A DNA stretch of 64,000 nucleotides, taken from the NCBI RefSeq assembly GCF_030690725.1, contig NZ_JAUYGD010000053.1:62001-126000 (forward strand), read 5' to 3'. Below, in pieces: positions 7,005 through 49,905 of the stretch. Every line of letters begins with the position of its first letter. Within the stretch, counting starts at the first letter, position 1. A program made the position numbers and the translations under genes. The notes beneath the pieces were generated by a model. The model was not told the DNA's origin and did no database searches. It saw only the letters and a list, made by a program, of their open reading frames with translations. The stretch comes from Pseudomonas sp. (GTDB lineage Bacteria > Pseudomonadota > Gammaproteobacteria > Pseudomonadales > Pseudomonadaceae).

Positions 7005-7451
7005 TTATTTCTTGGCTTTCGGGCTCTGCAGGCGGATGTGCAGTTGAGTGTCCGCCGTGCCGTGCTCGAACAGGCTGTCAATCGGTGTGGGCTTGCCATT
7101 GAGCAGCGGTGGGTTGGCGGAAAAGCCCACCGGTTCCAGCGGGATGCCGCGCCGGCCATGGTCGAGCTGGCCGTTGCCGTTGCTGTCCTGGTACAGCTGA
7201 ATGGCATAACGCCCAGGCGGCAGGTCGACTAGGCGCAGCTGGCCGTCGCCACTCTGCTGCAGGCGCAGTGGCTGTTCCGGCCAACGTTGCAGCATGCCGC
7301 TCACCAGCGCCGCATGTACGGTTGCCGTGGCTTGTATGCCATCTACTGTGACCAGGATGTCACCGGCTCGGGCATATGAGCCGACCAGTAGCAGCAAAAG
7401 GCCAGTCTGATAGCCTGCCTTCTTTACGGTTTGAAGAATTCTCTGTGGCAT
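7005..7451 (-). CDS. DUF2141 domain-containing exported protein
   Basis: YAIQLYQDSNGNGQLDHGRRGIPLEPVGFS is typical of DUF2141. Confidence 0.75.
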   Translation of the reverse strand: MPQRILQTVKKAGYQTGLLLLLVGSYARAGDILVTVDGIQATATVHAALVSGMLQRWPEQPLRLQQSGDGQLRLVDLPPGRYAIQLYQDSNGNGQLDHGRRGIPLEPVGFSANPPLLNGKPTPIDSLFEHGTADTQLHIRLQSPKAKK

Positions 7452-7482
7452 AATCCGGGCATTTCGCAGGAAGTGGCTGGCG

Positions 7483-8400
7483 ATGCGTCAGGTCTTGATC
7501 GTTCATTTTTCACAAACCGGCCAGCTAGACAGGTTGGCGCAATCGGTATGCGAGCCGTTACAGCAATGCAGCGATATTCAGTTGGATTACCTCCAGCTGC
7601 AACCCGCGCAACCTTACCCCTTTCCCTGGCCGTTTCTCGAGTTTTTCCGGATTTTTCCGGAAACCGTGCTGATGCGCCCGCAGCCTCTGTTGCCGTTGGC
7701 GGTGGATGCGAGCAAGCGTTATGACCTGGTGATTCTTGCCTATCAGGTGTGGTTTCTTTCGCCGTCGCAGCCGATGACTGCTTTCCTTGCTTCGCCTGAG
7801 GCCGCGCACTTGCTCAAGGGCACGCCGGTGGTAACCCTGATCGGCTGCCGCAATATGTGGCTGATGGCCCAGGAGAAGGTCAAGAGCCGCCTTACTGAAC
7901 TGGGCGCGCGGCTGGTGGACAATATCGCTCTGACTGACGCCTGCGGCACTGCGGCGAGTTTTCTGGCGACGCCCTTGTGGCTGTTTACCGGGCGGCAGAA
8001 ATCCTACAGCTGGGTGCCGCGCGCCGGTATTGATGAGGCTGAAATTGTCGCCGCCAGCCGCTTTGGCGTGGCCATGGCGCAACGCTTGACGGCCGACAGT
8101 CTGCCGATTGAGCAGCCGATGCTCAGCGGCCTGGGGGCGGTGAAGATTGATGAAAAGCTGATCGCCAGTGAGAAGGTCGGCAATCGCAGCTTTCAGCTCT
8201 GGAGCCGCTTGCTGGCCGCTTTAGGCCCGCAACATAGCCGTCGCCGCGGTGCCGGGCTGGTGGTTTATATCCTGTTTCTGTTGTGCCTGATCGTCACCGT
8301 AGTGCCGCTCAGTGCCTTGCTTAAAAAGTTGTTGGCGCCGCTGTTAAAAGAGCGCACCCAGCGTGAGAAGGCGTACTTTGCCGGCCCGTCTGGCGAGTGA
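7483..8400 (+). CDS. DarA-like (dialkylresorcinol condensing enzyme family) protein, flavodoxin-like N-terminus
   Basis: VLIVHFSQTGQLDRLA flavodoxin-like start; next to a KSIII; C-terminal TM segment. Confidence 0.65.
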   Translation: MRQVLIVHFSQTGQLDRLAQSVCEPLQQCSDIQLDYLQLQPAQPYPFPWPFLEFFRIFPETVLMRPQPLLPLAVDASKRYDLVILAYQVWFLSPSQPMTAFLASPEAAHLLKGTPVVTLIGCRNMWLMAQEKVKSRLTELGARLVDNIALTDACGTAASFLATPLWLFTGRQKSYSWVPRAGIDEAEIVAASRFGVAMAQRLTADSLPIEQPMLSGLGAVKIDEKLIASEKVGNRSFQLWSRLLAALGPQHSRRRGAGLVVYILFLLCLIVTVVPLSALLKKLLAPLLKERTQREKAYFAGPSGE

Positions 8401-8419
8401 AGTGACCTGAGGAAGTCCC

Positions 8420-9586
8420 GTGGTACAACCTGTATTTATCAATCGCATCAGCGCTTTCCTGCCCCATGAGCCGGTCGACAACGAGCAGATGGAAGCGTGC
8501 CTGGGCCTGGTCGGCGGCAAGCCGTCGCGCGCGCGCAAGCTGATTTTGCGTAGCAACGGCATCCAGCAGCGTCACTATGTGATCGACCCGCAGACCGGCG
8601 CGCCGAGCATGAACAATGCCCAGGTCAGTGCGGCAGCGATTCGCGGCCTGTTGGGCGGCGATTTCCAGCTGGCGGATCTTGATTGTCTGGTGGCCAGCAG
8701 CGCCTCACCGGATCAGGTCATGCCCGGCCATGCGGTGATGGTGCAGGGCGAACTGGGCAACCCACCGTGCGAAGTGGTGTCCACCGCCGGTATCTGCCTG
8801 TGCGGCATGACCGCGCTGAAATACGCTTGGATGAGCGTGGCCAGTGGCGAAAGCCGCAACGCCGTGGCCTGTGGCTCGGAAGTGGCTTCGACGCTGATGC
8901 AGGCGAGCAACTTCAACGCCGAGTATGAGAGCCGCCTCGACGAGTTGGAAACCCACCCGGAAATCGCCTTTGAGAAGGACTTTCTGCGCTGGATGCTCTC
9001 CGATGGCGCCGGTGCCGTGCTGCTCCAGGGCCAGCCGAACCGCAAGGGCCTGAGCCTGCGCATCGACTGGATCGACATCTTTTCCTTCGCCGACCAGATG
9101 CCGCCGTGCATGTACGCCGGGGCGGAAATGGTCGACGGCCAGCTGCAGGGCTGGAGCCGCTATGAAGGCGCTGAGCGCAATCGGCGCTCGCTGATGGCGA
9201 TCAAGCAGGACGTCAAACTGCTTAACGACAACATCGTCAAATACACCGTCGAAGAAACCCTCAAACGCATCATGGCGCGCCGCGAGCTGCATGCCGAGGC
9301 GATCGATTATTTTCTCCCGCACTACTCGTCGGAGTTCTTCCGCGAACGCCTGTCCGTGGGCCTGGCCAATGCGGGTTTGCCGATTCCGCAAGAACGCTGG
9401 TTTACCAACCTGACCAGCAAAGGCAATACCGGCGCTGCGTCGATCTTTATCATGCTTGATGAGTTGTTCAATTCAGGTAGCCTGCGCAGCGGCCAGCGTT
9501 TGCTCTGCTATGTGCCAGAAAGTGGGCGCTTCTCCAGCGCCTTTATGCAGTTGACAGTGGTTGGCCAGGACGGTGACAACACATGA
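8420..9586 (+). CDS. Beta-ketoacyl-ACP synthase III family protein (DarB-like)
   Basis: STAGICLCGMTALKYA (Cys), FLPHYSSEFF (His), NLTSKGNTGAAS (Asn): complete KSIII triad. GTG start. Confidence 0.85.
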   Translation: MVQPVFINRISAFLPHEPVDNEQMEACLGLVGGKPSRARKLILRSNGIQQRHYVIDPQTGAPSMNNAQVSAAAIRGLLGGDFQLADLDCLVASSASPDQVMPGHAVMVQGELGNPPCEVVSTAGICLCGMTALKYAWMSVASGESRNAVACGSEVASTLMQASNFNAEYESRLDELETHPEIAFEKDFLRWMLSDGAGAVLLQGQPNRKGLSLRIDWIDIFSFADQMPPCMYAGAEMVDGQLQGWSRYEGAERNRRSLMAIKQDVKLLNDNIVKYTVEETLKRIMARRELHAEAIDYFLPHYSSEFFRERLSVGLANAGLPIPQERWFTNLTSKGNTGAASIFIMLDELFNSGSLRSGQRLLCYVPESGRFSSAFMQLTVVGQDGDNT

Positions 9587-9990
9587 AGCTCGATGAGGTT
9601 CCCCAGGATCACAGCTCCACTTACGGCGGCCACTGCAAGTTGGTCTACGCCGTGGATGCCAGCGGCCATTATCAGGGCGCGCAGAGCGATGGCTGGGAGC
9701 CGGAAGCCTTCGCCACCCAGCTGGCTGTAGCCGAACTGCAGGAGCAGGAAGCCGAGGCCGAAGCGGGCTGGCAGCGCGGCGAGCTGTCGCCACTGAAGTG
9801 CCTGATGTACCGCTACCGCCTGGATGAGCCGGCGCTGGCGCAGATTACCGGGCTGTGGCAATGGCGTATTCGTCGGCATTTTCGCCCGACGATTTACCGC
9901 AAGCTGTCGGCAGCCATCCTGGCGCGTTATGCGGAGGCGTTCGGCCTGCCCGTTGAGCAATTGATTTCTTATCAGAAGGGCATGGCATGA
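9583..9990 (+). CDS. Hypothetical protein with C-terminal HTH-like segment
   Basis: 135 aa; overlaps stop of KSIII and start of next gene; LAQITGLWQWRIRRHF...LARYAEAFGLPVEQL resembles XRE HTH. Confidence 0.6.
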   Translation: MKLDEVPQDHSSTYGGHCKLVYAVDASGHYQGAQSDGWEPEAFATQLAVAELQEQEAEAEAGWQRGELSPLKCLMYRYRLDEPALAQITGLWQWRIRRHFRPTIYRKLSAAILARYAEAFGLPVEQLISYQKGMA

Positions 9991-10982
9991 GCAGCTTTCA
10001 GCATCAACAGAGCGCCCACTGCGAAAGCGGGGTGATGGCCAGCCTGTTGACCCATGCCGGTCTGCCGATAAGCGAGCCGATGGCCTTCGGCCTGGCGTCT
10101 GGCCTGGCGTTCGCCTACCTGCCGATCGTCAAACTTAGCGGCATGCCGCTGATTGCTTACCGCATGCCGCCCAAGCACCTGATCAAGACCCTGAGTAAGC
10201 GTTTGGGGGCGAAGCTGCACACGCGCACCTTTGGCGATCCCGAGCAGGGCCGTCGTGAGCTGGACGCCGCGCTGGACAGCGGTCGCCTGGCCGGGCTGCA
10301 GAGTTCGGTGTTCTGGTTGCCGTACTTTCCGCCGGAGATGCGTTTTCACTTCAACGCGCACAACCTGCTGGCCTATGGCCGCGAGGGCAATGACTACCTG
10401 ATCAGCGACCCGGTGTTTGAAGAACCGGTGCGTTGCGCCGCCGAAGACCTGCAGAAAGCCCGTTTCGCCAAAGGTGCGCTGGCCGCCAAGGGGCTGATGT
10501 ACTGGCTCGATGATGTGCCGCTGGAGCAGGACTGGAACAAGCTGATCCGCCAGAGCGTGCTCTCCACCACGCGCATTCTCGATGGCATGCCGCTGCCCTG
10601 GATCGGTATTCGCGGCATCCAGCATCTGGCCAAGCAGATCGACAGACTCGATCCGGCGCAGAGCAAATACAACCGTCTGTACCTGACCCATATTGTGCGC
10701 ATGCAGGAAGAAATCGGCACCGGCGGTGCGGGTTTTCGCTTTATGTACGCGAGCTTTTTGCAGGAGGCCGGCGAGCTGATCGGCGACGCCAGCTTGCAGG
10801 AGGCCTCGGCCCAGCTGACGGCGATCGGCGATGATTGGCGGCAGTTCGCCTCGGCCTGCGTACGCGCCAGCCGCAACAAGGGTGAGACGCCAAGCTTTGC
10901 GCCCATCGCCGAGAGTCTGCGCAGCATTGCCCTGCAGGAGCGTGGGTTGATGCAGGAACTGGCGGCCTGGAGCAAGCGGTAG
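9987..10982 (+). CDS. BtrH N-terminal domain (acyltransferase-like) protein
   Basis: QQSAHCESGVMASLL (Cys) and FHFNAHNLLAYG...YLISDPVFEEP (His/Asp) as in the BtrH_N/DUF4872 architecture. Confidence 0.7.
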   Translation: MSSFQHQQSAHCESGVMASLLTHAGLPISEPMAFGLASGLAFAYLPIVKLSGMPLIAYRMPPKHLIKTLSKRLGAKLHTRTFGDPEQGRRELDAALDSGRLAGLQSSVFWLPYFPPEMRFHFNAHNLLAYGREGNDYLISDPVFEEPVRCAAEDLQKARFAKGALAAKGLMYWLDDVPLEQDWNKLIRQSVLSTTRILDGMPLPWIGIRGIQHLAKQIDRLDPAQSKYNRLYLTHIVRMQEEIGTGGAGFRFMYASFLQEAGELIGDASLQEASAQLTAIGDDWRQFASACVRASRNKGETPSFAPIAESLRSIALQERGLMQELAAWSKR

Positions 10983-11051
10983 GTGGATCGTGCTTTATCG
11001 ATCCACCGATCAGTACCACAGGGGGATGAAAACAGCGTCATCCACCCTACA
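10981..11051. repeat. GTAGGTGGAT...ATCCACCCTAC inverted repeat between convergent operons (possible bidirectional terminator)
   Basis: Inverted GTAGG(G)TGGAT arms plus an internal GGTGGATCG/CGATCCACC hairpin. Confidence 0.55.
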
Positions 11052-11604
11052 GATGCAGGCGCAGCACCTCGACACCACGGCTTAGCTCGGCAAAGTCGTT
11101 GGCGTAAGCCCCGGCTATCGCCCCCTCCAGCAGCAGCGCCTGCACGCAGAAATCCCCCCGCTCATCACAAACCAGCAGCAACGCCTGCTCGATCAAACCA
11201 TCCTGCAAATCCAGATTGGCCAGGGTCTGCAATTGCGCCCAGACCTGCTCGCCAGCACCGATAAATAGATTCGGCCCGTCGATGCCCAGTTGCTGGGCGA
11301 TATGAAAGCCGGCGGCGTTGCTGACGCTATTCACAAACTCGAAGGGCTTGGGCTGTTTGTGCTGCACGTACACCGCTTCCAGCAACGCGCCCATGGTGGC
11401 CCGCGCCGGGTGGGCGGAGGCCAGGTACAGGCCGCAGTTGTTGCGCACCTGTGCTTTCAGGGGCGCAGCGGCCAGCAGGCATTGCAGGATCAGGCGGTCG
11501 ATACGCCGTGGCGGGCTGTCCAGCCACTGGCCGAGGGCTGCCTTCAACTGTTTGTCATCCGTGCTGGCCAGGCCATGGACTTCACTGGCGGCTATTACCG
11601 GCAT
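11047..11604 (-). CDS. Half-size beta-ketoacyl synthase-like protein lacking the active-site Cys (CLF-like)
   Basis: NSVSNAAGFHIAQQLGIDGPNLFIGAGEQVW aligns with the KS nucleophile region, but GAG replaces the Cys context. Confidence 0.65.
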   Translation of the reverse strand: MPVIAASEVHGLASTDDKQLKAALGQWLDSPPRRIDRLILQCLLAAAPLKAQVRNNCGLYLASAHPARATMGALLEAVYVQHKQPKPFEFVNSVSNAAGFHIAQQLGIDGPNLFIGAGEQVWAQLQTLANLDLQDGLIEQALLLVCDERGDFCVQALLLEGAIAGAYANDFAELSRGVEVLRLHL

Positions 11605-12719
11605 GTCATGTCCCCCTGAGCGCAGCCTTGCAATACCAGGCTGGCGTTATTGCCGCCAAAGCCGAAGAAGTTGGTCAGCAGCAGGCTATCTGCCGCCAGT
11701 TGCTGCGGTTCTGCACTCAATGGCAGCAGTGCTTCGCTGGCGTAGCTCACGCCGGGCAGTGGGCCGTTTTGCAGGGCCTTGAGCAGCAGCAGGCTTTCAC
11801 TTAGCCCGCAGGCACCCAGGGTATGGCCGAGCCAGGGTTTGAGCAGGCTTAGGCCCGGCATCTGTTCGCCATAGAGCAGGCGCATGCCGTTGCTTTCGGC
11901 TACATCGTTAGCGCTGGTGGCGGTGCCGTGCAGTTTCACCAGGTCGATCTGCGCCGCCGTGCAGCTGGCGCTGCGTAGCGCCTGTTGCATGACCCAGTGG
12001 ATATGACTGCCATCTTCGCGGGTGGTGGTTAGGCTGCTGGTGTCGCAGGCGCTAAAACCGCCCAGCAGGCGCGCCAAGGGTGCGTCATCCGGCTCGCGGC
12101 CGAGCAGCACGGCGGCATAGGCTTCGCCCAGCAGCAGGCCGTCGCGCTCGGGGTGAAAGGGCCGGTACTGGCCGCTGGGGCTGGTCAGCATCAGCGCGCC
12201 GAAACCCTGCTTGGCGATAGCGCTGGGGGTTTCGAAACTCAGCACCAGGGCGCGGGCGTACTGACCGGTGTTGACCAGCCGGGCACCATACAGCAGGCCG
12301 TTGGCGGCGCTGGTGCAGGCGGTATTCAGGGTAAAGGCGGCGGCAAAACCCCAGCGCTGGCGCAGCTGGCTGGCGAGCAGATCCAGCGGCGTTGAGTCTT
12401 CCGGGCGAAAGCCCTGCTGCTGGCGGGTCAGGGCTTCCAGTTCGCTGATATCCAGGCTGGTGCTGGCGATAATCAGCAGGCAGTCGTCGAGTGCCTGAGG
12501 ATTGGCACCGAGGGTTTCGCCGAGCAGGCGATCCAGGCGCTCACTCAGGCTTTCGCCAGTTTTCGTGGCGTACAGATAAGTACGCGGCTCAAGCACTTCA
12601 TGCAGCACAAAGGGCTCGCCCTGGGGCGGCTGATCGCTTTGCAGGGCGCGGGCGGCGCTGTGCAGGTCATCACCCAGGGCGCAGTGCAGGGCGGCGCGTT
12701 GCAGATAGATCGGGGTCAC
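11595..12719 (-). CDS. Beta-ketoacyl-ACP synthase (KAS I/II type)
   Basis: TLNTACTSAANGLLYGA (Cys), KLHGTATSANDVAE (His), PWLGHTLGACG (His). Confidence 0.85.
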   Translation of the reverse strand: MTPIYLQRAALHCALGDDLHSAARALQSDQPPQGEPFVLHEVLEPRTYLYATKTGESLSERLDRLLGETLGANPQALDDCLLIIASTSLDISELEALTRQQQGFRPEDSTPLDLLASQLRQRWGFAAAFTLNTACTSAANGLLYGARLVNTGQYARALVLSFETPSAIAKQGFGALMLTSPSGQYRPFHPERDGLLLGEAYAAVLLGREPDDAPLARLLGGFSACDTSSLTTTREDGSHIHWVMQQALRSASCTAAQIDLVKLHGTATSANDVAESNGMRLLYGEQMPGLSLLKPWLGHTLGACGLSESLLLLKALQNGPLPGVSYASEALLPLSAEPQQLAADSLLLTNFFGFGGNNASLVLQGCAQGDMTCR

Positions 12720-12982
12720 TGCTGCTGCCTGATATAGGCGGCGATGCTGGCGATAGTGCCGAGGATGCGTCGACCGTCCTTGGCGCCCTCAATACGCACG
12801 CCGTAGTGCTGCTGCAGCGCCAGGGAGACTTGCAGGGCATCCAGGCTGTCCATGGCGATACGGCTCTTCGCGCCGAACAGTGGCTCGTCATCGCTGATGC
12901 TTTGCCAGTCGATATCATCTTCCTTGTCGCACTCGCGGATCAGCAGTTGTTTGAGTTGTTGTTCTAGTAGTGAGTGGTCCAT
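12716..12982 (-). CDS. Acyl carrier protein
   Basis: 88 aa; KSRIAMDSLDALQVSLALQQHYGVRI carries the phosphopantetheine Ser (DSL). Confidence 0.8.
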   Translation of the reverse strand: MDHSLLEQQLKQLLIRECDKEDDIDWQSISDDEPLFGAKSRIAMDSLDALQVSLALQQHYGVRIEGAKDGRRILGTIASIAAYIRQQQ

Positions 12983-14148
12983 TGCGTGCGCTGTACTCGT
13001 CGGGTGAACAAAAGCAGCCCGGCCACGCCGCACAGCGCTGCAAACAGCAGCAGGCGTGCGCAGTAGGGGGCGATGTCGGCCAGTGAGCCGTGGCCCACCA
13101 GCAGGGTGAGAAAGGCATCCAGCGCCCAGCTCATTGGGGAGATTTCCGCCAGTTGGGCCATGGCCGCCGGCATTACACTTTTCGGCACCATAATCCCGCC
13201 AATCGCGGCGAGGAGGATATTGATACCGCCGCCGAGCAATAGCGCCTGCTCGTTGCTGCGCGCCAATGCGGCCAGCAGCAAGCCCAGGCTGCAGGTGGCC
13301 AGAGCGATGCTGATGGCCAATAGCGGGTAGGCCACGGCGCTACCGGGCAGGCTAAGCGCCGGCAGACCAAGCAGTGGTAGGCCGTAGACGCCAATACTCA
13401 GCAGCAGAGCGAACTGCAGCAGGTTGATGGCGAAGTACGGCAGCAGTTTGCTCAACACCAGGGTGCCAAGGTTTAGCCCGAGGCAGCGCAGGCGCAGCAG
13501 GGTGCCGCTTTGTTGTTCGCGCTGAAAGCCACCGGCCATGGGCAGCACGACGAAGAACATGCCGAAAATCAGCCAGGCCGGCACGCTCAGTTGGGTGGCG
13601 TTGGCACGGCCGCTAAGGTCGCCGCTGGCCAGCTGTTCCTGCTCATTGATCTGGCTCTGGGTGCGCTGCTGCACCAGTTGCAGGCGCTCGGCGCGGCTTA
13701 GTTCGGCATCGATCACACCGCTATCTTCCAGATAGGCCAGCAGCCGGGTCTGCGCCAGGGCGATGCTCACCGCGCTGTGCAAGCGCTGGCGCGAGAGTTT
13801 GTCGAACTGCGCCGGGAAGCTCAGGCTCGGCCCTTGATGCGGGCTGTCCAGCAGCTTGTCGGAGAAGTCTGCGGGCAAGCGCACATGGGCCAGGCTTTCG
13901 CTGCTCTCGTCGAACAGCTGGCTGTCCGGCAGTTGCGCCTGCAAAGCGTCGCGGAAGAACTGGCTGGCGTCGTCGTGCGGCGCTTCGATAATCAGGCGCA
14001 GCGCCGGCGGCTTGTCCTGCATATAGCTGGACATGGCCCCTGCCATCAGCAGCAGAAACAGGGTCGGCATAATAAACAGCACGGCCAGCGCATGGGGGTC
14101 GCGCAGCAGCAACAGCACTTCCTTGCGCGCCAGCGCCCAGAGCCTCAT
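12964..14148 (-). CDS. ABC-2 type transporter permease
   Basis: KEVLLLLRDPHALAVLFIMPTLFLLLM N-terminus, large periplasmic loop, C-terminal TM bundle. Confidence 0.85.
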   Translation of the reverse strand: MRLWALARKEVLLLLRDPHALAVLFIMPTLFLLLMAGAMSSYMQDKPPALRLIIEAPHDDASQFFRDALQAQLPDSQLFDESSESLAHVRLPADFSDKLLDSPHQGPSLSFPAQFDKLSRQRLHSAVSIALAQTRLLAYLEDSGVIDAELSRAERLQLVQQRTQSQINEQEQLASGDLSGRANATQLSVPAWLIFGMFFVVLPMAGGFQREQQSGTLLRLRCLGLNLGTLVLSKLLPYFAINLLQFALLLSIGVYGLPLLGLPALSLPGSAVAYPLLAISIALATCSLGLLLAALARSNEQALLLGGGINILLAAIGGIMVPKSVMPAAMAQLAEISPMSWALDAFLTLLVGHGSLADIAPYCARLLLFAALCGVAGLLLFTRRVQRTQWTTHY

Positions 14149-15029
14149 AGCCGGCCTCCGTTAAGGCGCAGGTAGAGCTGCTCGAGCGAAGGGCGGCCAA
14201 AGCGCAGCAGATTGGGCAGGCCATCCTGCGCGGCAACAAATTCGCTGATTGCCAGCAGCTGTTGGCCGTTCAGGGCGGCAATACGCAGGCCCTTGGGCAG
14301 CACTTCGACCGTCAGCTGCAGGCTCGCGAGCAGTTGGTGAAGGCCGGCGGGTGGCGCGTCCGGCCATTCCAGCAGCAGGCCGTGGTCGTCGCCGAGCAGC
14401 TGGCGCTTGTCCAGGTCCAGGCGCACCTGACCTTCGTGCAGCAGCAGAATGCGCTGCGCCACCCGCTCGACCTCTTCCAGGTAGTGGCTGGTGTAGATCA
14501 CCGCCTTGCCCTCGGCGGTCAGCTGTTCCACGGCGGCCAGCAAGTGTTGACGACTCGCCGCATCGACGCCCACGGTGGCTTCATCGAACAGATAGAGATC
14601 GGCGGGTTGCAGCAGGCCGATGGCGAAATTCAAGCGCCGCTGTTCGCCGCCGGAGAGCTGCTCGCTGCGCCGGGTCAGCTTGTCTTGCAGGGCGCAGATT
14701 TCGATGCACTGCTGCAGGCGCTGGCGGCGCTCATTGCCGCGCAGGCGATAGAGGTCGGCAAAGAGTTCGAGGTTTTCGCCCACCTTGAGCCCGGCATAGA
14801 AGGCCAGCTGTTGCGGCACCAGGCCGAGCCTGGGTTGGCCCTCCCAGCGCAGCTCGCCCTGCTGCAGCGCCAGCACGCCGCTCAGCAGCGAGAGCAGGGT
14901 GGTCTTGCCGGCGCCATTGCTGCCGAGCAGGCCCAGGCATTCGCCGGCCTGCAGCTGCAGGTCGATGCCTTGCAGTGCGGCGCGGTTGGCTCCTGGATAG
15001 CTGTGGACGACATTGCGCAGTTCAAGCAT
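14145..15029 (-). CDS. ABC transporter ATP-binding protein
   Basis: Walker A GSNGAGKTT, LSGGEQRR signature, Walker B LYLFDEATVGVD. Confidence 0.9.
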   Translation of the reverse strand: MLELRNVVHSYPGANRAALQGIDLQLQAGECLGLLGSNGAGKTTLLSLLSGVLALQQGELRWEGQPRLGLVPQQLAFYAGLKVGENLELFADLYRLRGNERRQRLQQCIEICALQDKLTRRSEQLSGGEQRRLNFAIGLLQPADLYLFDEATVGVDAASRQHLLAAVEQLTAEGKAVIYTSHYLEEVERVAQRILLLHEGQVRLDLDKRQLLGDDHGLLLEWPDAPPAGLHQLLASLQLTVEVLPKGLRIAALNGQQLLAISEFVAAQDGLPNLLRFGRPSLEQLYLRLNGGRL

Positions 15030-15429
15030 GGATCAGCACCAGCAGCAGTTTGCCGTCGAGCAGCAGGCGTTGCTCGCTATGGATGCTGAAGGCATACAGC
15101 GCGCCGGCCGGGCTTAGCGCTTCTTGCTGGGCGCTGACCTGCAGCGCGCCACTGCGCTGGGTCGGTTCATGGTGCAGCTGCAACTGCGAGAGCTTGCCGA
15201 CCAGTGCCATTTCAATGGCACTGGCATCGCCGTATAAGGCACCATGCGCGGCGCATAATTGGGCGGCCGCCTCGAACAGCAGGCAGGGTGAGGCGTCGGT
15301 GCCAAATGTGTCCAGATAGCGCCAGGCACTCAGGCCCTGAATGTTCAGGCTGTCATGCGCCAACAGGCCATCCAGCCAGAGGGCTGGGCCTTGGTGGGGC
15401 AGCAGGCTGTGCAGTTGAGTGCGATCCAT
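15022..15429 (-). CDS. Hotdog-fold 3-hydroxyacyl-ACP dehydratase-like protein (ApeP/FabA-like)
   Basis: LLPHQGPALWLDGLL...CLLFEAAAQLCAAHGAL; ATG at 15429. Confidence 0.7.
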   Translation of the reverse strand: MDRTQLHSLLPHQGPALWLDGLLAHDSLNIQGLSAWRYLDTFGTDASPCLLFEAAAQLCAAHGALYGDASAIEMALVGKLSQLQLHHEPTQRSGALQVSAQQEALSPAGALYAFSIHSEQRLLLDGKLLLVLIHA

Positions 15430-15531
15430 TGCGGGCGGCCGAGGTAAACAGGCCGGCAGTGTAACAGAGGGGCTGCAGGTCACGCAGCGCCTGGCTTTGA
15501 CGGATTATTGGGCGGAGTGGGAGAAGGCGTT

Positions 15532-16086
15532 ATGGGCTGGTTGCAGGGGTTGGCCTTCGGGCTGGGGACATTGGTGTTGCTGGCGCTGTCCTGGCGGGCG
15601 TTGCTGCGGCCGCAGTCCCACGGCTTCTACCGGTTCTTCGCCTGGGAGGCGATTTTGGCCTTGCTGGTGCTTAACGGGCCGGTCTGGTTTGTCGACCGTT
15701 TTGCCCTGCATCAGCGCCTGTCCTGGCTGTTGTTGTTCGCCTCTTTGCTGCTGCTGTTTGCCGGCCTCTATCAGCTTCGGCGTATGGGCCGTCCCGATGG
15801 GCAGCGTACGGATGCCGAGCTGTTCGCCTTCGAGCGCACCTCGCAGTTGGTCACCAGCGGCATCTTCCGCCTGATCCGCCACCCGCTGTACGCCTCGCTG
15901 CTGTTGCTGGCTTGGGGCGTGGCCTGCAAACAGCCCAATGGCCTGAGCCTGGTTCTGGCATTACTGGCCAGCCTGGCACTCTGGCTGACCGCCAAGCGCG
16001 ACGAGGCCGAGTGTTTGCAGCAGTTTGGTGAGGCGTACCGCGACTATATGCAGCGCAGCAAGATGTTTATTCCTTGGCTCCTCTAA
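15532..16086 (+). CDS. Isoprenylcysteine carboxyl methyltransferase (ICMT)-like membrane protein
   Basis: TSGIFRLIRHPLYASLLLLAWG...DEAECLQQFGEAYRDYMQRSKMFIPWLL. Confidence 0.8.
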   Translation: MGWLQGLAFGLGTLVLLALSWRALLRPQSHGFYRFFAWEAILALLVLNGPVWFVDRFALHQRLSWLLLFASLLLLFAGLYQLRRMGRPDGQRTDAELFAFERTSQLVTSGIFRLIRHPLYASLLLLAWGVACKQPNGLSLVLALLASLALWLTAKRDEAECLQQFGEAYRDYMQRSKMFIPWLL

Positions 16087-49074: not shown

Positions 49075-49905
49075 CTAGTTAGGGCTCTCACCTTCAGAAG
49101 TGAATTCTATTTTTGGAGGCAATTCGGACATGGCATAGTGGACGAATTGCTGCCCAAGCGCAGTTAGTTCATAACCTTCATGTACATCGAATGCCGATAC
49201 AAGAGGTTTAGGTCCGCTCCCTTGCGGCTTTCTGGCGGCTGGCTTTGCAATGAAATTACCAAATCGATCTGTTTCCCTGTGTTGCCGTATTATTCCGCCG
49301 GTGCTTAAATCGCGAAATAATAATTTATAAAGATCGGCGTCTGCTGAGTCTTCGCGTACAGCACCCTTTCCGATCTTTTTCCATATACCGCCGCGCGTTA
49401 TTCCGGCACTGTTGTAGATGGCCCCAATTACTTGAAAGTGCATTTCTGAATATGTATTAATCCAATCAATGTACATTCTTACCACGTCGTCGCTTGAGAC
49501 TGTTGTAGCAGCAGCGTTTGACAGAATATTCCTTATGTAAATGCGTTTTTCTTCACTTTCAGCGCCGGCCCATTCGCGAAATGTTTTCTTAACTAATGAC
49601 TGATATTCTTTACTTTCTATTCTTTCGGTAACCGTTTCATCTTGAAGGTCAAGCCTAGCCATTATCTCGATAATGGTTTCTTCTTTCTCTTTGAGTTCAT
49701 CTCGAAGCATTTGCACCCAGTGTTCGAAAAAGCGATTTACCTTTTCCTGCTCGCCTTCTGACCACGCGCCTGCAATAGCCGAAAAAACTCCTCCTGCAAA
49801 AGGGACTGCGCCTCCAATAGCTTGTAAGGCACCGCGTGAATATTTTGCAATTTTTCCTTCTTTAGGTAGTTCAAGGTTTTCGTCATTATTGACTTCATCA
49901 TTCAT
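49075..49905 (-). CDS. Hypothetical protein with Gly/Ala-rich N-terminal hydrophobic segment
   Basis: 276 aa; AT-richer than surroundings; YSRGALQAIGGAVPFAGGVFSAIAGAWSEGEQEKVNRFFEHWVQ. Confidence 0.75.
   Translation of the reverse strand: MNDEVNNDENLELPKEGKIAKYSRGALQAIGGAVPFAGGVFSAIAGAWSEGEQEKVNRFFEHWVQMLRDELKEKEETIIEIMARLDLQDETVTERIESKEYQSLVKKTFREWAGAESEEKRIYIRNILSNAAATTVSSDDVVRMYIDWINTYSEMHFQVIGAIYNSAGITRGGIWKKIGKGAVREDSADADLYKLLFRDLSTGGIIRQHRETDRFGNFIAKPAARKPQGSGPKPLVSAFDVHEGYELTALGQQFVHYAMSELPPKIEFTSEGESPN

Follow-up and report, generated by a model that had tools for sequence, protein, structure and literature searches.

Among the closest described systems to the locus studied here is the dar cluster of Azoarcus sp. 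BH72 (azo0283-0293), the product of which, arcuflavin, is a dialkylresorcinol (DAR) joined, apparently as an ester, to a xanthomonadin-like aryl polyene (APE), with polyene genes unlinked to the DAR genes (PMC3949708). The cluster comprises darA, darB, darD (hypothetical), darE (BtrH-like), darF (ABC ATPase), two toxin-antitoxin-like genes, darI (ABC permease), darC (acyl carrier protein, ACP), darJ (ketosynthase, KS) and darK (hypothetical) (PMC3949708). Flexirubin is likewise a polyene-DAR ester, for which FlxW was proposed as the ester-forming enzyme (PMC3992019). In Pseudomonadaceae, hybrid APE-DAR clusters termed V1-V3 were described in silico in 2023, called unique and left chemically uncharacterised (PMC10165715). 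For P. flavescens, no report of a xanthomonadin-like pigment was found in the literature searched. Here we analysed a 64-kb stretch of a Pseudomonas sp. genome (the window; positions 62001-126000 of contig C10, genome G000), in which two convergent operons very probably encode the DAR half of an APE-DAR ester pigment pathway of the arcuflavin/flexirubin type, split in this genome from the APE half. This assignment is based on NCBIfam calls for the DarB family, DarG and DarH, the Azoarcus gene list, a genomic APE cluster, co-occurrence, synteny, and the predicted fold and catalytic triad of DarH.

The window shares with Azoarcus BH72 darA, darB, a small hypothetical gene, a BtrH-like gene, an ABC ATPase and permease, an ACP, a KS and a further hypothetical gene. 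The NCBIfam names DarG and DarH, used here, correspond to Azoarcus darD and darE. In both genomes the polyene genes are unlinked from the DAR genes. A dehydratase, a DUF2141 protein and a PEMT/ICMT-type methyltransferase occur in the window and are missing from the Azoarcus list, whereas the two toxin-antitoxin-like genes are found in the Azoarcus cluster only. Furthermore, the Azoarcus genes read as one series, while in the window the ABC-ACP-KS block faces the dar genes, and the polyene starter is 3-hydroxybenzoate (XanB2 type) in Azoarcus, whereas G000 has an aromatic ammonia lyase. The flexirubin pathway of Chitinophaga/Flavobacterium (PMC3992019) also combines darA/darB with an ammonia-lyase-initiated aryl polyene, but belongs to another phylum and was compared by description, not gene by gene. 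Pseudomonas sp. 8O, named as a V1 carrier (PMC10165715), contains the same 12-gene unit as the window (L112, G277/L069), as judged from the gene order in the sequence and not from the published figure. There, the unit touches the APE cluster, whereas in G000 the halves lie at least about 69 kb apart. An earlier sequence-only reading of the window had considered the locus uncharacterised in kind. This view can no longer be held, as NCBIfam models exist for DarG and DarH and the Azoarcus cluster provides both the gene set and a product, a correspondence taken from the published annotation and not from a MIBiG search. The window locus is a further carrier of the already described APE-DAR hybrid class, here with unlinked halves.

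Three of the four genes of the plus operon, darA-darB-darG-darH, scored above their NCBIfam cut-offs. DarB is a close relative of StlD, whose structure is solved (5gk0, 499 bits), and the Cys-His-Asn triad ascribed to it before is present as C126/H301/N336, invariant in 92 sequences. With 484 bits, the protein stays below the curated 550-bit cut-off of NF053539, the DarB exception model, and it is therefore filed at the level of the broader StlD/DarB subfamily. DarA matched no family model in Pfam and NCBIfam searches. It was named because its gene constantly precedes darB and is homologous to darA of loci that carry darAB only (384-401 bits with a profile built from DarA's own family). The small 135-aa protein, previously listed as unknown, is DarG by NCBIfam, a dialkylresorcinol/flexirubin protein. 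In its AlphaFold2 (AF2) model (pLDDT 78.6) the N-terminal third is unreliable, and Foldseek matched the C-terminal half to XRE-type folds (best E 2.5e-3). This half is thus predicted to adopt an XRE-like helix-turn-helix fold; DarG may act as a regulator or a scaffold. A DarG profile search of the PDB returned designed repeat proteins only, which were dismissed as chance matches. In one relative (L072; G390:C1:121432-122563) darB is broken into two overlapping frames within an otherwise complete unit, which is a frameshift or a sequencing error.

The remainder of the genome was examined by family searches and by inspection of individual stretches. The end of contig C11 encodes a chain-length factor (CLF; PF13723, 262 bits), an acyltransferase, two ACPs, an AMP-ligase with an ApeI-type dehydratase domain, a glycosyltransferase, a lipid A-type acyltransferase and an N-terminal fragment of an aromatic ammonia lyase. 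The start of contig C26 encodes a C-terminal fragment of such a lyase, a thioesterase, a LolA-like protein, an MMPL-type exporter (named from sequence), an FAD-dependent halogenase-like protein, a methyltransferase and a DUF3261 protein, together with a KS (527 bits, over the PRK09185 cut-off), an ApeP dehydratase, a ketoreductase (KR) and a second KS. Of the 466 positions of the lyase profile, the fragments span 1-233 and 317-453, an arrangement suggestive of adjoining contig ends. By its predicted gene content, G000 carries a canonical APE cluster over C11/C26. Its PF13723 CLF, ammonia lyase, AMP-ligase, KR and MMPL exporter are all absent from the DAR locus. The DAR locus and the APE cluster are not neighbours in G000, as ~69 kb separate the former from the closer end of its own contig. 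A PF01648-family phosphopantetheinyl transferase (PPTase) is encoded on C29. The sequence-only reading had remarked on the lack of a ketoreductase, an aromatic starter enzyme and a PPTase. This stands for the window, which was not scanned whole for them, but not for the genome; the KR and starter enzyme seemed to be lacking because a single window was viewed, while the full APE cluster lies elsewhere.

DarH scored above its cut-off in 52 of 399 genomes of the family, and all 52 contained the APE CLF, compared to 248 of the 399 overall (hypergeometric 1.9e-12, uncorrected for kinship). Conversely, 196 of the 248 APE-positive genomes are without DarH. The half-KS of the minus operon was found in the identical 52 genomes and in none besides, as determined by comparing the two genome lists. 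Members of the DarB family were found in 55 of 398 genomes, i.e., the 52 with DarH plus three. These three genomes have darA-darB, with an ACP-like gene in one or two of them, as well as the APE marker, and their darAB-only loci are devoid of genes for DarG, DarH, half-KS, KS, dehydratase, permease and ATPase. Their sole DAR locus is of the free-DAR type, as in P. chlororaphis. As darG, darH and the minus block are missing there, these genes follow the hybrid and not DAR making per se.

These data bear on the idea that the locus makes a free DAR comparable to HPR of P. chlororaphis, the APE cluster producing a separate pigment, and that DarH, KS and half-KS serve DAR tailoring or supply. DarA and DarB alone suffice for DAR formation (PMC6403133), and both pathways coexist unlinked in the three genomes with DarB but no DarH. 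However, darG, darH, the half-KS, the KS and the ABC genes, all of which track DarH, are missing from the free-DAR loci within this family, and DarH above cut-off was never seen without the APE marker among the 399 genomes. The HPR cluster darABC-darSR (PMC6403133) has darA and darB homologues in common with the window. No gene for its AraC-type regulators darS/darR is adjacent in the window's open reading frame (ORF) list, and extra genes are present, so that the locus does not conform to the HPR type. We therefore consider free-DAR production improbable and retain the APE-DAR hybrid as the assignment.

Gene order was compared in 40 loci drawn around DarH-like matches within the family, 38 of them dar-bearing. 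The DAR unit lies beside APE genes in 16 of the 40, and G342 has a single contiguous cluster running from the DUF2141 gene and darA through the methyltransferase and the APE KS to the APE CLF. In G349 (L164, G349:C11:140000-159999, and L045), darABGH and the minus block, the latter with its methyltransferase, are both complete although ~870 kb of the same contig separate them, and joint retention is therefore not a matter of mere adjacency. The arrangement resembles the outcome of an inversion that broke the unit between darH and the half-KS gene; the flank of the minus block in this genome keeps the methyltransferase and homologues of ORFs 16091 and 16634. Burkholderiales and Neisseria loci (L136, L150) show the collinear order darA-B-G-H-ATPase-permease-ACP-KS-halfKS, from which it follows that the convergent operons of the window are two blocks of one pathway, rearranged. 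That they are unrelated neighbours was rejected on account of the shared 52-genome distribution and of G349. The sequence-only reading had already put them together and had named a failure of the operons to co-occur as evidence to the contrary, which is not what the distribution showed. Two further Neisseria loci (L145, L149) differ from L150 in that darABGH lies within the APE cluster with no KS/half-KS/permease block nearby; they contain other ABC ATPase genes and possibly offer a natural test of the need for that block. A self-contained pathway to a new acyl product of non-ribosomal origin, with no relation to aryl polyenes, as might be assumed from a window that by itself has no polyene genes, is highly unlikely given the polyene cluster in G000, the fusion of both halves in the 16 relatives and the presence of the same genes in the arcuflavin producer.

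DarH contains the Pfam domains BtrH_N (165 bits) and DUF4872 (177 bits), both over their cut-offs, and residues C12, H125 and D141 are invariant in 97 sequences. While sequence search yielded no PDB relative, the AF2 model (pLDDT 85) gave near-full-length matches to AziU3, CtaG and CcbD with E values of 1e-10 to 1e-6. PDB titles for these proteins name the CtaG variants C11A/H128A/D144N, a CtaG-PHBA complex and CcbD-PCP complexes. DarH thus resembles the BtrH/CtaG/CcbD/AziU3 group in predicted fold and Cys-His-Asp triad, but differs in sequence (12-15% identity) and in its proposed acceptor, a phenol. Predicted fold and triad support a role in which DarH would move a carrier-bound aryl acyl group via an acyl-cysteine. 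By analogy to the ester of arcuflavin and flexirubin, and from the distribution of DarH, a DAR hydroxyl is the putative acceptor. The closest DarH relatives are from a gammaproteobacterial metagenome-assembled genome (97%), followed by those of P. peli at 96% and P. anguilliseptica at 95%. Two DarH-like proteins (G067:C15:32725-33654 and G187:C81:19225-20142) were under the cut-off and had no dar genes nearby; they were rejected as DarH and represent BtrH-family relatives.

Several points weigh against the assignment as a whole or against the part given to DarH. Of the enzymes with known chemistry, CtaG, CcbD and BtrH acylate nitrogen and no phenol. The genomes are related, so the co-occurrence counts are not independent, and the APE cluster is pieced together from two contig ends, each with part of the ammonia lyase. 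No measured product from any pseudomonad with this cluster type was found in the literature. Finally, the flexirubin ester step has been attributed to another enzyme, the proposed FlxW (PMC3992019). The ester could accordingly be the work of a FlxW-like ligase or of an APE-cluster acyltransferase, and DarH might have another task, e.g., proofreading or the release of ACP-bound acyl chains; the DarH fold is indeed common to peptidases (C39, phytochelatin synthase). We regard this as unlikely, though less so than a free DAR, given that the nearest full-length folds are AziU3, CtaG and CcbD, the latter two with PHBA and PCP complexes among the PDB titles, and that the APE-positive genomes without DAR genes lack DarH, which ties it to the hybrid and not to polyene making.

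In the minus operon, C135 and H299 of the KS are conserved in 82 of 82 sequences and H264 in 81 of 82. Its nearest solved structures are 6qsp_A, a KS, at first rank and 7f28_B near the top. The half-KS and the dehydratase matched neither Pfam nor NCBIfam models. By hhalign, the half-KS was matched with 97% probability to the family formed by the APE CLFs of G000 and its relatives, and a weak profile match was obtained to 7f28_A, the partner chain of 7f28_B. S63 of the ACP is invariant in 63 sequences. The dehydratase aligned to the ApeP-type APE family (55% probability, E 1.2e-4), its His30 and Glu71 coinciding with the catalytic His and Glu; no PDB relative was found by profile search. It is a distant ApeP-like hot-dog protein. 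The methyltransferase downstream of it may act as a DAR O-methyltransferase, a lead taken from linkage and from similar enzymes in type III polyketide synthase operons; presumably it is comparable to BpsB/SrsB. A literature search for an alkylresorcinol methyltransferase of the ICMT type gave only general text on bpsA-bpsB. In two loci (L050, L059) a homologue (46-48%) is located upstream of darA and not downstream of the dehydratase gene, and this position speaks for a functional link with the DAR genes.

A pathway can be proposed around what was read from sequence, namely the identities of the genes and their catalytic residues, the presence of a second cluster, and the patterns of co-occurrence and synteny. 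KS, the Cys-less half-KS and the ACP would form a beta-oxo-acyl unit, and the dehydratase together with a KR from elsewhere would provide a 2-enoyl unit, giving 3-oxoacyl and 2-enoyl thioesters. DarB reportedly joins a beta-oxo-acyl unit to a 2-enoyl unit, in one case 2-butenoyl (PMC5515871). Such a supply would give the dehydratase a role, though DarB outside this group works without it. As established in relatives, DarB would condense both units to a cyclohexanedione, which DarA would aromatise to a 2,5-dialkylresorcinol, and the methyltransferase may methylate a phenol. The unlinked C11/C26 cluster would, again as in relatives, build an aryl polyene acid on its own ACPs from an ammonia-lyase-derived starter. 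DarH would then load the ACP-bound polyene onto Cys12 and transfer it to a resorcinol hydroxyl; the resulting ester is established in relatives, and the part of DarH in it is our proposal. The ABC transporter would export either the finished product or the DAR from the cytoplasm. In outline, this keeps the earlier view of a product made on a dedicated ACP, with the BtrH-type protein as likely acyl transferase and the ABC transporter as likely exporter. Tentatively, and with more doubt than confidence, we combine three proposals: DarH as the APE-DAR ester-forming O-acyltransferase of the BtrH/CtaG/CcbD class, KS/half-KS/ACP/dehydratase as the source of both DarB substrates, and a PEMT/ICMT-type enzyme leading to a new O-methylated APE-DAR pigment in Pseudomonadaceae.

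The features of the locus are listed in Table 1. All ten ORFs from darA to the dehydratase gene were confirmed in the positions and overlaps described earlier, and each is kept in 35-38 of the 38 dar-bearing loci, so they are no chance ORFs. Within the 40 loci, darA, darB and darG each occur in 38, half-KS, KS, ACP, permease and ATPase each in 37, the dehydratase in 35, the methyltransferase in 36 and the DUF2141 gene in 38; all twelve genes are found together in 34. The DUF2141 gene adjoins darA in 38 of the 40, even where the remaining flanks vary. The conserved unit extends from 7005 to 16086 and is thereby two genes wider than first delimited. Spacing in the plus operon is 19 bp between darA and darB and -4 bp for both darB-darG and darG-darH. 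After a 64-bp convergent gap between darH and the half-KS gene, the minus operon overlaps throughout (half-KS/KS -10, KS/ACP -4, ACP/permease -70, permease/ATPase -4, ATPase/dehydratase -8). Because the listed ACP ORF overlaps the permease gene by 70 bp, its true start is probably downstream of 13033. A promoter and terminator scan gave a result near chance. Elsewhere in the window, a 276-aa ORF (49075-49905, minus strand) has 44% GC compared to 60-62% for the genome, no Pfam match and a marginal PADLOC match only (DpdD, E 0.009); it is likely a recently acquired orphan gene.

Table 1 Features of the DAR locus, in coordinates of the 64-kb window.
Feature	Position	Strand	Evidence
DUF2141 protein, 148 aa, probable secreted/periplasmic accessory	7005..7451	-	Pfam PF09912 60 bits
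darA, DAR aromatase-type, membrane helix at C-terminus	7483..8400	+	position and homology
darB, StlD/DarB-family ketosynthase (cyclohexanedione-forming)	8420..9586	+	NF005293 597 bits, cut-off 450
darG (Azoarcus name darD), small protein	9583..9990	+	NF053536 173 bits, cut-off 70
darH (Azoarcus name darE), BtrH-related acyltransferase	9987..10982	+	NF053550 equivalog 480 bits, cut-off 300
half-KS, CLF-like, N-terminal KS half without active-site Cys	11047..11604	-	hhalign
KS, full Cys-His-His set	11595..12719	-	best PDB match 6qsp_A; C135/H264/H299
ACP	12716..13033	-	PRK09184 48 bits (below cut-off of 70); PP-binding 21 bits
ABC-2 permease	12964..14148	-	PF12698 90 bits
ABC ATPase (DrrA-like)	14145..15029	-	PF00005 90 bits
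hot-dog dehydratase, ApeP-like	15022..15483, probable start 15429	-	profile-profile comparison
PEMT/ICMT-like membrane methyltransferase, candidate DAR O-methyltransferase	15508..16086	+	PEMT 36 bits, over cut-off; ICMT 23.5 bits, just under cut-off of 24

Polyene-resorcinol pigments are used in taxonomy as markers, and a protective effect against oxidation has been ascribed to them. The occurrence of DarH only where both halves exist, together with its predicted carrier-protein acyltransferase fold, singles it out as the candidate enzyme that joins them. The distribution of the pathway predicts that many pseudomonads, yellow-colony species included, would make polyene-resorcinol pigments.

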